This document shows, piece after piece, positions 35,528-43,174 of a stretch of DNA of 43,174 nt (the stretch's first letter is position 1; each line of letters starts with the position of its first letter). Source of the DNA: a virus. Position numbers and translations under genes: made by a program. The stretch covers positions 1-43,174 of IMG/VR virus record IMGVR_UViG_3300044648_000338; one strand, given 5' to 3'. Under the pieces are notes generated by a model. The model was not told the DNA's origin. It ran no database searches and worked only from the letters and a program-made list of their open reading frames with translations.

Positions 35528-36004
35528 TCACTCGTCCACGGCGGTGTCTAGGGCCGAACGGCCCTGATCCGCATTATTCGGGTCGATGACGATGTACTTG
35601 CCGGGGTTCGCCTCGCGCACCGCCGCCGTGGGTACAGGACGGGCGGGCGCGGTGCGATGGAACCGGCGCCGGATCTCCGCGAGCAGGTCGTCGTCCGTGA
35701 CCTGGTCCAGCGTCGGGCCGTCGGTCGCGTCGACGCCGGCCACCTCGTCGTCGGTGAGGATGCCCGCGGGCACGAGGACGCGGATGAGCGGCATCTGGAG
35801 TGCGCCGGCGACCTTGCGGGCGTTGGTCACGGTGACCTCACCGCCAGCTTTCCAGCGTGCGGTGATGGAGCGTTCGAAGCCAGCGCGGCGGGCAAGCTCG
35901 CTCGCCGTCCAGCCGCGTTCGTCGAGGGCGGCCTGGACGAACTGCCACCAGCGGTTCTCGGTCACACCTGCGGATGGTACGTGCATGCACGCAACGTCGG
36001 ACAT
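35528..36004 (-). CDS. XRE-family immunity repressor
   Basis: Leftward ATG at 36004 has GGGGGATTCG in front; ATG at 35986 and GTG at 35965 are alternatives (35986 lies inside an operator-like palindrome). With the 36004 start the product has 158 residues. The HTH is FVQAALDERGWTASELARRA / GFERSITARWKAGGEVTVTN (about 22-61), then a linker, and a C-terminal region (LLAEIRRRFHRTAPARPVPT) without a known enzyme motif. Its position divergent to a Cro-like gene, and palindromes in the promoter region, indicate the lysogeny repressor. Binding to the GTGCAC palindromes is inferred. Confidence 0.75.
   Translation of the reverse strand: MSDVACMHVPSAGVTENRWWQFVQAALDERGWTASELARRAGFERSITARWKAGGEVTVTNARKVAGALQMPLIRVLVPAGILTDDEVAGVDATDGPTLDQVTDDDLLAEIRRRFHRTAPARPVPTAAVREANPGKYIVIDPNNADQGRSALDTAVDE
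35979..35992 (-). promoter_or_regulatory. Operator copy at the repressor gene start
   Basis: On the minus strand GCGTGC-AT-GCACGT, part of a GTTGCGTG context shared with both early promoters. It overlaps the first codons of the repressor, which would allow autoregulation. Confidence 0.6.
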
Positions 36005-36088
36005 CGAATCCCCCGAAGATTTGGATTGCCTTACCTGTGGAAGCGGTGGGTAGTCGGTTGACCACCCGTTGCTTGTATACACCAGATG

Positions 36089-36131
36089 TTGCGTGCGTGC
36101 ACGCCTTCCCGTAGCGTGTGTGCATGCACAC
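36089..36131 (+). promoter_or_regulatory. Early rightward promoter P2 with operators, leaderless start
   Basis: The -35 TTGCGT (36089-36094), 17-nt spacer and -10 TAGCGT (36112-36117). Palindromes: GCGTGC-GT-GCACGC (36091-36104) over the -35, and the perfect 14-bp GTGTGCATGCACAC (36118-36131) covering the expected transcription start and the ATG at 36124. The A of the ATG is 7 nt after the -10, so the message would start at the initiation codon. Confidence 0.8.
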
Positions 36132-36440: not shown

Positions 36441-36749
36441 ATGCACGAATCGTACCGCACGCCGTTGCCGCCGTTGGACACGGCCGGCTACCTGGCGCTG
36501 TGGCGCGCCCTGTTCGAGATCCCGGTGACGGTCGGGGCGATCCCGGCAGACCCGTGCATGTGGTGCGGGGCGGAGGACCGGCCGGCGAGGGCGCGGGTGC
36601 ACGGCGACCCGAGTCCGGAGGCGCTCACCCTCGCGTGGGCGGACTGCTGCTGGTCGTGCGTCCCGGAGGCGGTGGCGCGGGCGCTGCGGGACGTGCGTGA
36701 CGACTCGCGGCGCGGCGTGCGGCTGGAGGTGTCGTCGTGGGCTGGCTGA
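36441..36749 (+). CDS. Hypothetical protein with Cys clusters
   Basis: ATG at 36441 is chosen for the perfect GAGGAGGCACCT before it; a GTG at 36363 (GTGA with cro) would add 26 residues through the hairpin. The 102-aa product contains ALWRALFEIPVTVGAIPADP, CMWCGAED and DCCWSCVPEAVARALRD: CxxC and CxxC pairs, probably one zinc. No family recognised. Confidence 0.6.
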   Translation: MHESYRTPLPPLDTAGYLALWRALFEIPVTVGAIPADPCMWCGAEDRPARARVHGDPSPEALTLAWADCCWSCVPEAVARALRDVRDDSRRGVRLEVSSWAG

Positions 36750-36850
36750 TCGCGGGCGTGATCGCCGCCCTGCTGTTGGTCGCGCTGGTCGCGCTGGACC
36801 GCGCCGAGAAGAAGATCCGTCGCATTTTCAACGAGGAGTTGGACAAGTGA
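36737..36850 (+). CDS. Tiny membrane protein
   Basis: GTG at 36737 behind GGAGGTGTCGTC, overlapping the preceding gene by 13 nt and the exonuclease start by 4 nt. The 37-aa product is GWLIAGVIAALLLVALVALD, one transmembrane helix, then the charged end RAEKKIRRIFNEELDK. The ribosome site and fit between neighbours support it; function unknown. Confidence 0.55.
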   Translation: MGWLIAGVIAALLLVALVALDRAEKKIRRIFNEELDK

Positions 36851-37773
36851 ACGGGCGGCTCGGGAACGCGGTGCACGTCGGCACGTTCGAGGCGGGCTCT
36901 CCGGAGTGGCACGCCGCCCGCGCCGGGGCCATCACCGGCAGCCGCATCGCCGCCGTCCTCGGCCTCTCCCCCTGGGAGTCCCGCTTCAGCCTGTGGCACC
37001 GCATGGCCGGGATGATCGGTGACGAGGTCGAGAACGACCTGATGCGCTGGGGCAAGCTGCTGGAGCCCGTGATCCTGGGCGAGTACGCCCGCGAGCACGA
37101 GACCGAGCTGGACACCAGGCCCGGCACGTGGGCGAGCAGCACCCGGCCGTGGCAGGTCGCCAACGTCGACGCCCTCGGACCCCGCATCGTCGAGGCCAAG
37201 TACAGCCCGATGACGGACGGCTGGGGCGAGCCGGGCACGGACCTGATCCCGGTCTACTACCGGGCCCAGGCCCTCTGGTACCTCGACACCTTCGGCGGCC
37301 CGGAGCACGGGTTCGAGCGCGCCGACGTGGCCGTGTTCTTCGGGGTGTCCGGGTACGCCGAGTACCACGTGGACTACTCGCCCGACGAGTGCGCCCTGAT
37401 GCGCCAGGAAGCGCGGGCGTTCCTCGACAGCCTCCCCAGCACCAGCAGCGCGGGCGTCCGCCCCGACCTCGACGCCCACAGCTCCACCTACCAGACCGTG
37501 CGCGCCCTCCACCCCGACATCGACGACGAGGCCGTGGACGTGCCCGACGAGATCGGCCGCGCCTACCTCGACGCCATCGCCAACGCCAAGGCCGCGGCCG
37601 AGGAGAAGGACCGGGCGTCGGCCGCCGTGCTGGACGCGATGGGCCGGGCCCGCCGCGCCTGCCTCGACGGCACCCAGATCGCGATGCGCATCCCCGGACG
37701 GGGCGACAACCCGCCCTACCTCAAGCACACCCCCACCAAGGCCCCTGGCCAGAGAGTGAGCCGAGCAGCATGA
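36847..37773 (+). CDS. YqaJ/lambda-exonuclease-type recombination nuclease
   Basis: GTG at 36847 in GTGA. The 308-aa product has SPEWHAARAGAITGSRIAAV (about 18-37), GKLLEP (Glu73), ANVDAL (Asp108) and IVEAKYS (Glu116, Lys118), the catalytic set of the YqaJ/RecB-like phage exonucleases. It digests one strand from DNA ends so that RecT can anneal the other. The C-terminus is a charged helix (AYLDAIANAKAAAEEKDRAS). Coupled with recT just downstream. Confidence 0.88.
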   Translation: MNGRLGNAVHVGTFEAGSPEWHAARAGAITGSRIAAVLGLSPWESRFSLWHRMAGMIGDEVENDLMRWGKLLEPVILGEYAREHETELDTRPGTWASSTRPWQVANVDALGPRIVEAKYSPMTDGWGEPGTDLIPVYYRAQALWYLDTFGGPEHGFERADVAVFFGVSGYAEYHVDYSPDECALMRQEARAFLDSLPSTSSAGVRPDLDAHSSTYQTVRALHPDIDDEAVDVPDEIGRAYLDAIANAKAAAEEKDRASAAVLDAMGRARRACLDGTQIAMRIPGRGDNPPYLKHTPTKAPGQRVSRAA

Positions 37774-38651
37774 CCGGACCCCAGACCATCACCACCGCCG
37801 TCGCCAAGCGCGACGACACCCCCAGCGGGCTCGTGAAGCAGTACAGCGAGTCCTTCACCGCCGTCCTGCCCTCGCACGTCAAGCCCGAGCAGTGGGTCCG
37901 CCTCGCCCAGGGCGCGCTGAAGAAAGGCAAGCGCGTCGCCCGCCCCGGCGGCGGCTCGTGCACCGAGCTGGAGCTGGCCGCGGGCAACAACCCCGGCGTG
38001 TTCCTGGCCAGCCTGCTGGAGTCGGCGCGCCTCGGTCTGGAGCCGGGCACCGAGCAGTACTACCTCACCCCGCGCAAGGTGAAGGGCAAGCTGGAGATCC
38101 TCGGGATCGTCGGCTACCAGGGCTACATCGAGTTGATGTACCGGGCCGGGGCGATCTCCAGCGTGGTGGCCGAGCCGGTGTTCGCGGCCGACAAGTTCCA
38201 GTACCGGCCGGGCATGGACGAGCGGCCCCAGCACGAGATCGACTGGGACGCGGAGGACCGGGGCCGGCTGCGCCTGGTCTACGCGTACGCGGTGATGAAG
38301 GACGGCGCGACGAGCAAGGTGGTCGTGTTGAACCGGGCGGCGATCGAGAAGATCAAGGCCAGCTCGCAGGGCGCGAACTCCGAGTACTCGCCGTGGGTGA
38401 AGCACGAGACGGCGATGTGGCTGAAGTCCGCGGTGCGCCAGTTGGCGAAGTGGGTGCCGACGTCGGCCGAGTACATGCGGGAGCAGCTGCGGGCCGCGCG
38501 CGAGGTGGCGGCCGAACCCGCGCCGGGTGCGGCGCCCGCCGGGTTCGCCCCGGTGGTCGAGGGCGACGCGGCGCCGGTGGACATCACCGAGCACTGGGCG
38601 GACGAGGACGCCGACGGCGCGGACTACCTCGACGCCGAGGTTGTGGAGTGA
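37770..38651 (+). CDS. recT: RecT single-strand annealing protein
   Basis: ATG at 37770 (ATGA). The 293-aa product matches RecT: PSHVKPEQWVRLAQGALKKG, GVFLASLLESARLGLEPGTE, VGYQGYIELMYRAGAISSVV, DGATSKVVVLNRAAIEKIKA and WLKSAVRQLAKWVPTS. It binds and anneals single-stranded DNA. The acidic C-terminal tail (EHWADEDADGADYLDAEVVE) is common in these proteins and may regulate DNA binding. Forms a recombination pair with the exonuclease. Confidence 0.9.
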   Translation: MTGPQTITTAVAKRDDTPSGLVKQYSESFTAVLPSHVKPEQWVRLAQGALKKGKRVARPGGGSCTELELAAGNNPGVFLASLLESARLGLEPGTEQYYLTPRKVKGKLEILGIVGYQGYIELMYRAGAISSVVAEPVFAADKFQYRPGMDERPQHEIDWDAEDRGRLRLVYAYAVMKDGATSKVVVLNRAAIEKIKASSQGANSEYSPWVKHETAMWLKSAVRQLAKWVPTSAEYMREQLRAAREVAAEPAPGAAPAGFAPVVEGDAAPVDITEHWADEDADGADYLDAEVVE

Positions 38652-41423: not shown

Positions 41424-42368
41424 ATGAACGTCACCCGCTGGGACCACGAACGCGCCGTCACCGCCAGCAGCCTGCCCGCGCCGTCCCGGCACCTCCTGCA
41501 CGTGCTCGCCATCCGCGCCGACGCCGACACCGGCATCATCCCCGCGGAGTACTCGCCCAGCCACACCCAGCTCGCCCAGGACACCGGCCTGTCCCGGCGC
41601 ACGGTGATCGACCACCTGGCCGCCGTCGAGCGCGCCGGCTGGCTCGGCGTCAAGCGGGCCCCCGTCGCCAAGCAGCGCGCCGAACACGCCCCCAACCAGT
41701 ACCGCCTCGCCCTCCCCAAGCACGCCGCGAAGCTAGTGCAGCAGCCGCACCCGGCAGCCCCGAAAGCTAGTGCAGCTCCTGCACCCGGGGGTAGTGCAGG
41801 AGCTGCACAGGCTAGTGCGACAGCTGCACACAACCAGACCAAAGAACTAACTACTAACTACCAAGCGGCTGCCGCCGCTTCACGCACAAGCGCAGGCGCG
41901 CACACGCGAGACCGCCTCGCCCAACTCGACGCCACCGCCGTGCGACGCCCCGACGCCTACGCACTCGTCAGCAGCTGGGCCCAACACCTCACCACCCCCC
42001 TCCTCGACACCCAACGCCGCGACCTCGCCAAAACCGTCGACACCCTCCTCGCCGAAGGCGCCCAACTCCCCATCCTCCGCACCGCACTCGACGACTGGGC
42101 CACCCGCGGACGCACCCCCGCCTTCCTCCGCTACTGCTACCAAGACGCCGCACAGAGGGCCAGAGCAGCGGAAACGGGTCCCGGCGCGTTGGACGTCCCG
42201 GGGTCGCGCGTGCACCAGCCCGCGCCAGGCTCGGACCGCGCCTCGAAGGCGCTGGGGTTCCTCGACCCGCGTGACCCGTACCTCGCCCGCCAGGGCGCCC
42301 ACCACCACCAGCCGCAGCAGCTGTCGCCCGGCGAGTTCCGGGTGATCGAAGGAGGCAGGACCGCATGA
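41424..42368 (+). CDS. Winged-helix replication initiator (lambda O-like role)
   Basis: ATG at 41424. The 314-aa product has an N-terminal winged helix (HTQLAQDTGLSRRTVIDHLA, AVERAGWLGVKRAP, about 50-85), an Ala/Pro/Gln-rich low-complexity middle (about 105-150) encoded by the iteron block at 41732-41829, then a helical C-terminal region (DAYALVSSWAQHLTTPLLDT, LDDWATRGRTPAFLRYC). Layout and iterons inside the gene resemble lambda O. It would recognise its own coding-region origin and recruit a helicase loader. Confidence 0.65.
   Translation: MNVTRWDHERAVTASSLPAPSRHLLHVLAIRADADTGIIPAEYSPSHTQLAQDTGLSRRTVIDHLAAVERAGWLGVKRAPVAKQRAEHAPNQYRLALPKHAAKLVQQPHPAAPKASAAPAPGGSAGAAQASATAAHNQTKELTTNYQAAAAASRTSAGAHTRDRLAQLDATAVRRPDAYALVSSWAQHLTTPLLDTQRRDLAKTVDTLLAEGAQLPILRTALDDWATRGRTPAFLRYCYQDAAQRARAAETGPGALDVPGSRVHQPAPGSDRASKALGFLDPRDPYLARQGAHHHQPQQLSPGEFRVIEGGRTA
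41732..41864. other. Probable replication origin: four 19-bp iterons plus A/T-rich block
   Basis: Iterons at 41732-41750, 41766-41784, 41790-41808 and 41811-41829, all starting GCTAGTGC or GGTAGTGC and ending GCAC, with an internal inverted repeat GTGCAG-N3-CTGCAC that is perfect in copies two and three. Centres are 34, 24 and 21 nt apart. An A/T-rich stretch (41841-41864, 17 of 24 bases A/T) follows, exceptional in this G+C-rich genome and a likely unwinding element. Confidence 0.7.
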
Positions 42369-43018
42369 TCGAGCACGAGTTGAGCGCCGAGGAGCTGCAC
42401 GCCGTCGCCGTGGGCCGGGGGCTGGCCGTCGCGGCGGCCACGGACCCGCGCATGCCGCGCTCGGACCCGGACGGGTTCATCCGGGCGACGTGGGTGGACA
42501 TGCTGCGCGACGTGCCGGCGGAGGTGATCGAGCAGGCGGTCAAGGAGTACTACTGCTCGGACCGGTACTTGCAGAAGCGGGAGACGATCGCGCCGGCGGA
42601 CGTGGTGCAGTGGTGGAACGCGCGGCGGCGGCCGACGGAGCGGGAGCGCACCGGCCTGAACGCGGCGACCAGGCGCACGGGCCCGGTGCCCGAGCTGGAT
42701 CCGCAGCGCATCCACGACGGCGTCGACCAGGTGTTGGCCGCGCTGGGTGCCCGCAAGGCGATCCGGGCCGGGGAGGACCCGGAGATGGCGGTGGAGATCG
42801 CCCAGGGCGAGGCCGCGGTGAGGCGCGAGTTCCTGTCGCGCCGGTGCCCGTACTGCGGCGCGGACGCGGGGCAGCCGTGCACGGTGCCCGCGACCGGCAA
42901 GCAGCTGGCGAAGGCACCGGCGCACCCGTCGCGGATGGGGCAGGCGCCGGACTTCGAGTCGACGCGTGCTCGTGCGCTGGCGGCGCTGGAGGGTGTGCAG
43001 GTCGACGCGGGGGCCGTT

Positions 43019-43030
<12 letters not shown>
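42365..43030 (+). CDS. Replication protein with zinc domain, possible helicase loader
   Basis: ATG at 42365 after GGAGGCAGGACCGC (ATGA overlap). The 221-aa product is helical at the N-terminus (SAEELHAVAVGRGLAVAAAT, FIRATWVDMLRDVPAEVIEQ, APADVVQWWNARRR), and ends with a zinc-finger-like CPYCGADAGQPCTVPATGKQ...HPSRM (about 161-189). Genes after the initiator in actinophages often encode a helicase loader or similar, and the N-terminus is consistent, but a DnaC-type ATPase motif is absent. Its last codons lie in the end overlap, so it reads through to bases 10-12 of the window. Confidence 0.5.

Positions 43031-43174
<144 letters not shown>

Follow-up and report, generated by a model that had tools for sequence, protein, structure and literature searches.

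The window analysed here is the whole of a 43,174-bp IMG/VR virus record with about 72% G+C. Its plus strand carries at 41424..42368 a gene for an O-like replication initiator of 314 aa, identified by PHROG profiles and by an orthologue in another phage locus, L095, and this gene contains a putative replication origin. The next gene (42365..43030, plus strand), whose first 4 bp are shared with the initiator gene, encodes a candidate helicase loader of the P/G39P-like type with a zinc-finger domain. Because bases 1–116 recur exactly at 43019–43134, the genome is probably complete and terminally redundant, with a unit of about 43,018 bp (~43.0 kb). The end repeat is not exact down to the final base; a poly-C run closes the contig (43134–43174), and this tail, which hides the end of the repeat, resembles an artefact of sequencing or assembly.

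Terminase, portal, head and tail genes are present, together with genes for an integrase, a repressor and a WhiB-like protein, and the phage is likely a temperate actinophage. Its host presumably belongs to the Actinomycetota, an assignment for which the 72% G+C and the WhiB-like gene are the sole grounds. Genes for a RecE-like exonuclease and a RecT-like annealing protein stand in tandem at 36697–38651. Two copies of GCGTGTGTGCACRCC, 23 bp apart, occur upstream of the first gene at 43037–43074 (equal to 19–56), and similar palindromes, GTGCATGCAC, are found at 35980–36131, where the repressor gene (35528–36082, minus strand) begins; both are candidate repressor operators. GC skew gave no clear genome-wide origin signal.

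Over residues 19–152, the initiator matched the profiles phrog_391, annotated as 'replication initiation O-like' (E 6.4e-11), and phrog_1032 (E 2.5e-9). Its score against HTH_36 (PF13730) was 21.9 bits (E 1.6e-4), under the gathering cut-off of 25, and Pfam Phage_rep_O (PF04492) gave no match at E up to 1; 2 of 68 relatives do match the latter profile. An AlphaFold model, built with an alignment of these 68 relatives, divides the protein into three parts. The N-terminal part (41430..41717, approximately residues 3–98) is predicted to be a winged-helix DNA-binding domain, with a block-mean pLDDT of about 82–97 over residues 11–100 and modelled wing strands at 74–77 and 92–95. Positions 1–9 of its recognition helix (41592..41618) are S57, R58, R59, T60, V61, I62, D63, H64 and L65. 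A flexible linker encoded by the putative origin follows (41721..41879, approximately residues 100–152), mostly with pLDDT below 50. The C-terminal domain (41892..42173, residues 157–250) comprises five helices, with pLDDT of about 80–88 over residues 181–250 and lower values in 157–180, and, by analogy with lambda O, is a candidate for contacting the helicase loader or the helicase.

Comparison of the model with PDB folds returned weak matches, the best at E 0.007 and none below 0.001, with a DnaD model ranked first and MarR- and CodY-type winged helices next. BFVD yielded 84 matches at E ≤ 0.001, including phage helix-turn-helix and replication proteins and one O protein. The confidently modelled winged helix and the O-like profiles agree with the initial annotation, in which the repeats were assigned to a gene for a winged-helix protein.

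De novo repeat finding revealed four direct copies at 41731–41830, all on the plus strand. Their 17-bp core, TAGTGC-R-N5-Y-GCAC, is present in four exact copies and is absent from the rest of the 43,174 bp on both strands. Iteron 1 (TAGTGCAGCAGCCGCAC, 41734..41750) is read as LVQQPH, iteron 2 (TAGTGCAGCTCCTGCAC, 41768..41784) as SAAPAP, iteron 3 (TAGTGCAGGAGCTGCAC, 41792..41808) as SAGAAQ, and iteron 4 (TAGTGCGACAGCTGCAC, 41813..41829) as SATAAH, with start-to-start spacings of 34, 24 and 21 bp. Every copy is a gapped palindrome, GTGCR-N5-YGCAC, a pattern that occurs 6 times in the genome compared with 1.3 ± 1.1 times in shuffled versions (0 of 100 shuffles reached 6); four of these six palindromes belong to the iteron cluster. 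In copies 1 and 4, one of the two half-sites is imperfect. The array had been described as four 19-bp repeats with internal inverted repeats; the four palindromic copies stand, and the unit is better given as 17 bp.

The array runs into an A/T-rich block at 41825..41864 (plus strand), a putative unwinding element that encodes ...NQTKELTTNYQ. This block is tied as the most A/T-rich 40-mer of the 72% G+C genome. It had been called strongly A/T-rich; the block is real, but at only 60% A+T it is modest, a point that counts against reading the region as an origin.

Codon choice in the array points to constraint on the DNA. Residues 96–150 were resampled synonymously, with the protein kept, in 20,000 trials under two codon models; genome codon usage yielded at most one iteron site and uniform codons at most two. 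The codon CTA is used for both Leu residues (2/2) of the iteron segment and for none of the 28 in the remainder of the gene. Similarly, AGT encodes all three Ser residues of the segment, compared with 0 of 12 elsewhere in the gene and none in the background CDS set. Since the iterons force rare or absent codons and encode a disordered linker, selection acts on the DNA. The earlier proposal was that the repeats impose a low-complexity Ala/Pro/Gln stretch on the protein; the encoded segment is indeed of low complexity.

A search for pairs of perfect TAGTGCAN5TGCAC sites no more than 30 bp apart found 103 IMG/VR stretches and 47 GTDB genome stretches, the latter from Pasteurellaceae, Aeromonas, Marinomonas, Paenibacillus, Alkaliphilus, Lachnospiraceae and others. 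We examined 97 array-bearing sequences, 68 of them non-redundant. In these 97, the array nearly always lies inside an open reading frame, from residue about 85–130, directly after a helix-turn-helix. Among the non-redundant relatives, HTH_36 was recognised in 52/68 (E up to 0.01) and phrog_270, 'replication initiation protein', in 58/68. The bases TA precede GTG at 195 of 216 sites from 64 genes, and 21–24 bp is the commonest spacing (103 of 152 intervals). In 79% of 108 genes the 60 bp past the last iteron are richer in A+T than the N-terminal coding part (63% vs 55%; Wilcoxon p 8e-12).

Iterons in the relatives are read in two frames, at times both within one gene. The 216 sites of the 64 genes divide 137, 71 and 8 among the three reading frames, so that it is the DNA, and not the protein, which is conserved. 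Because the third frame places TAG in frame, just two translations of an iteron are open, (L/V)V(Q/H)xxH and SAxxA, and both readings are present in the gene of this phage.

The nearest homologue is L095, whose initiator is 58% identical and whose array has five iteron sites (one with an imperfect half-site), a 34-bp first interval and a similar A/T block. L095 also has a homologue for one gene upstream of the initiator and a weakly similar one for the downstream gene. Searches of named-phage proteins with this initiator or the L095 protein gave no significant relatives, and a related-locus search from this initiator protein alone found nothing. In ST64B, mEp460 and PseuP_222, full and variant sites were located inside the annotated replication gene.

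Twelve loci in total were left out by eye as not clearly helix-turn-helix. Iteron-like pairs in L006, L055 and L083 lie opposite a large open reading frame, and those in L016 and L027 (a 17-bp tandem) and in L011 and L062 are likewise outside helix-turn-helix genes; all were considered unrelated, as were the SVTP-repeat reading frames of L240, L296 and L335. In Thermus phage Cumys (L164, 1794–1925), GTGGTG(A/C)A...TGCAC variants run through the initiator gene, which suggests that the same iteron family occurs in Thermus phages with G replacing A before GTG. In Pseudomonas phage PseuP_224 (L165, 1500–2145), the annotated 'primosomal protein I' spans the C-terminal part only; helix-turn-helix similarity and iteron-like repeats are found upstream, outside the annotated gene, which may be mis-annotated or frameshifted.

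Sister phages carry half-sites of the same layout that read GTGTC, GTGAC, GTGAA, GTGTA, GTGCC, GTGGC or GGGCA; for example, mEp554 has TAGTGTC...GACAC and Psychrobacter phage Y8A has TAGTGAC...GTCAC. Helix residues played no part in choosing the loci. Position 7 of the recognition helix is Arg in the GTGTC and GTGAC classes and non-Arg in GTGCA, and from this the residue was predicted for four further iteron classes before scanning for them. Arg7, predicted for GTGCC and GTGGC, was found in 4/4 proteins; non-Arg, predicted for GTGAA and GTGTA, was found in 14/14 GTGAA proteins and in all genuine GTGTA proteins. Across 99 proteins, Arg7 accompanies a fifth base C in 22/22 and a fifth base A in 0/77 (22/22 vs 1/86 under a looser automatic filter). 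For the fifth base, the strongest association by far is with position 7, at a z of 21.9 (next column, 6.0); for the fourth base it is with position 3 (z 15.4). The columns of S57, R59 and D63 (positions 1, 3 and 7) show the strongest association with iteron bases, and this phage has at all three the residues expected for GTGCA.

When the helix columns are left out of the tree, 18 changes of the fifth base are needed, against a mean of 20 for shuffled labels; with the two values so close, the association is not inherited from a few ancestors. Near-identical natural pairs illustrate it. The N-termini of L179 (GTGTC) and L188 (GTGAC) are 91% identical, and Ser3/Arg3 is their sole helix difference; the helices of L102 (GTGCA) and L252 (GTGAA) differ by Ser1/Thr1. 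An exception is the pair L025 and L257, which share a near-identical helix and differ in iteron class, with both arrays mixed. In these arrays, TAGTGAAN5TGCAC hybrids alternate with palindromes of the GTGCA or GTGAA type. For position 3, Ser had been predicted in advance for the GTGTA class, and this prediction mostly failed: GTGTA proteins had Ser in 1/7 and Lys in 5/7. A constant pairing of Ser3 with T at the fourth base was accordingly discarded. L216 (3001–3789) and L219 (3001–3312), found by protein alone, carry TAGGGCAN5TGCCC instead, an indication that the outer GTG of the half-site can also change.

The residues switch with the half-site bases and the position-7 predictions held, which argues that the initiator's own helix reads the iterons; judged from these sequence comparisons, the initiator very probably binds them. 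We consider it likely that the comparisons reflect a recognition code in a large, cross-phylum class of initiators with the frame TAG-TGxy-N5-y'x'CA-C. As part of this same reading, Arg at position 7 would read C at base 5 and a non-Arg residue would go with A, position 3 (Arg/Asn/His vs Ser/Lys) would read base 4, and position 1 (Ser/Thr) would tune C versus A.

The product of the downstream gene showed a sub-threshold match to Inhibitor_G39P (profile positions 34–54) and a match above the cut-off to Phage_zn_bind_8. Its homologue in L095 is syntenic with weak similarity, a PDB profile search gave no informative match, and its AlphaFold model is of low confidence (pLDDT 51). Tentatively, this protein could be the helicase loader. 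Neither a DnaB-type helicase nor a family-A polymerase was found in the phage genome, which is why loading of a host helicase is proposed below.

The repeats, their DNA-level constraint, position, family, conserved arrangement and residue–base covariation were computed directly. On this basis, 41734–41864 is very likely the replication origin of a temperate phage, embedded in its own initiator gene. The initial annotation had proposed an iteron origin of lambda-like layout in an O-like initiator gene, and the recurrence of the same iteron, place and A/T flank in ~100 unrelated contigs supports it. From these results we infer binding, melting, loader recruitment and a start of replication. Initiator dimers would use their N-terminal winged helices to bind the four palindromic iterons, with residues 57–63 of the recognition helix reading the GTGCA half-sites. 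Since the iteron centres are spaced by close to two helical turns, dimers on them may form an O-some-like complex that strains the neighbouring A/T-rich block. The C-terminal domain would then recruit the host replicative helicase via a loader, for which the protein encoded by the next gene is the probable candidate. An origin could be tolerated within the gene because the part it encodes is a disordered linker between two domains.

MarR- and CodY-type regulators also combine palindromic sites with a winged helix, and such proteins are among the fold matches; the repeats could accordingly be operators by which the winged-helix protein represses its own operon, with replication starting elsewhere. 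The covariation speaks for binding and not for replication. Nevertheless, the explanation is improbable, given that the sites lie >300 bp within the gene, past the domain and not at a promoter, that the A/T-rich block comes after them, that 58/68 relatives match replication-initiator profiles, and that the intragenic iterons of characterised cousins are origins (PMC7466680, PMC6316719).

Even less probable is that the array serves a plasmid-prophage in partition or incompatibility (copy-number control) and is not itself a start site. Plasmid iteron arrays can play such roles, and some actinophage prophages carry RepA and parS repeats (PMC7157519). Here, however, an integrase is encoded and the prophage therefore probably integrates, no ParAB was recognised among the part of the open reading frames searched, and the array sits in an O-like gene and matches the origins of its cousins. 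The low complexity of the encoded segment would also suit repeats that arise secondarily from a repetitive, Ala/Ser/Gln-rich stretch of protein and have no role as DNA. We give this almost no credence: rare codons are forced, codon resampling never recreates the array, the iterons covary with the recognition helix, and a single DNA motif read in two frames as different peptides already contradicts it.

The preferred reading, an origin inside the initiator gene, finds its closest parallel in phage lambda. Lambda O occupies every iteron as a dimer, and the complex so formed puts strain on the adjoining A/T tract (PMC6022878, PMC7466680); the two domains of O are joined by a disordered linker that the origin encodes (PMC6022878). 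In both systems the initiator starts with a DNA-binding domain, continues in a flexible linker and closes with a C-terminal domain, which binds a partner protein in lambda and would do so here. In each, four iterons and an A/T-rich tract lie in mid-gene; the dimers on each lambda iteron and the loader gene directly downstream have proposed dimers and a candidate loader gene as their counterparts in this phage. In contrast to lambda, the iteron family is TAGTGxyN5y'x'CAC, Phage_rep_O is not matched, the phage is G+C-rich and probably actinobacterial, and the candidate loader is not P-like by sequence. In lambda, P22 and L alike, the initiator seems to rely on iterons of its own within the gene (PMC8022706). 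Gene 18 of P22 and gene 18 of Salmonella phage L resemble the present case in being related initiators with differing iterons in the coding region; as second replication protein these two phages have a DnaB-type helicase, which was not found in this phage.

Salmonella phage ST64B sb42, coliphage mEp460 gp43 and the 'replication protein (O)' of Pseudomonas phage PseuP_222 have full TAGTGCAN5TGCAC sites and variants positioned after the same kind of domain; they differ in host, in many imperfect half-sites and in their C-terminal domains, and their records contain no description of an origin. SPP1 gp38 binds oriL within its own gene and works with the loader gp39 (PMC6316719). Intragenic direct repeats with an A/T-rich region and a small loader (G39P) are common to gene 38/oriL and the present locus, although the resemblance of the candidate loader to gp39 is sub-threshold, and SPP1 is a Bacillus phage with a phage-coded helicase, gp40, and a second origin, oriR. 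In Pseudomonas phage MD8, gp56 is an O-like gene with reported internal repeats (PMC8508860); these contain TGCAC and are of another type, and specificity was not analysed for MD8.

Embedded origins and differing iterons are already known, and the probable origin described here adds another such case. That origin specificity differs among lambda-like initiators has been known for decades. The new part, of interest to specialists, is the residue–base code; the literature searched, which for the most part did not include subscription papers, contained neither such a code nor a TAGTGCA iteron family. The comparative set names the responsible residues and bases, and natural near-identical pairs are available. 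It also offers a simple sequence-only route to the origins of many uncharacterised phages, including G+C-rich, probably actinobacterial ones, in which few origins have been defined. If the code is true, the placement of the iterons within the gene would let protein and site change jointly at a single locus, and new origin specificities (incompatibility groups) would arise repeatedly through paired small changes.
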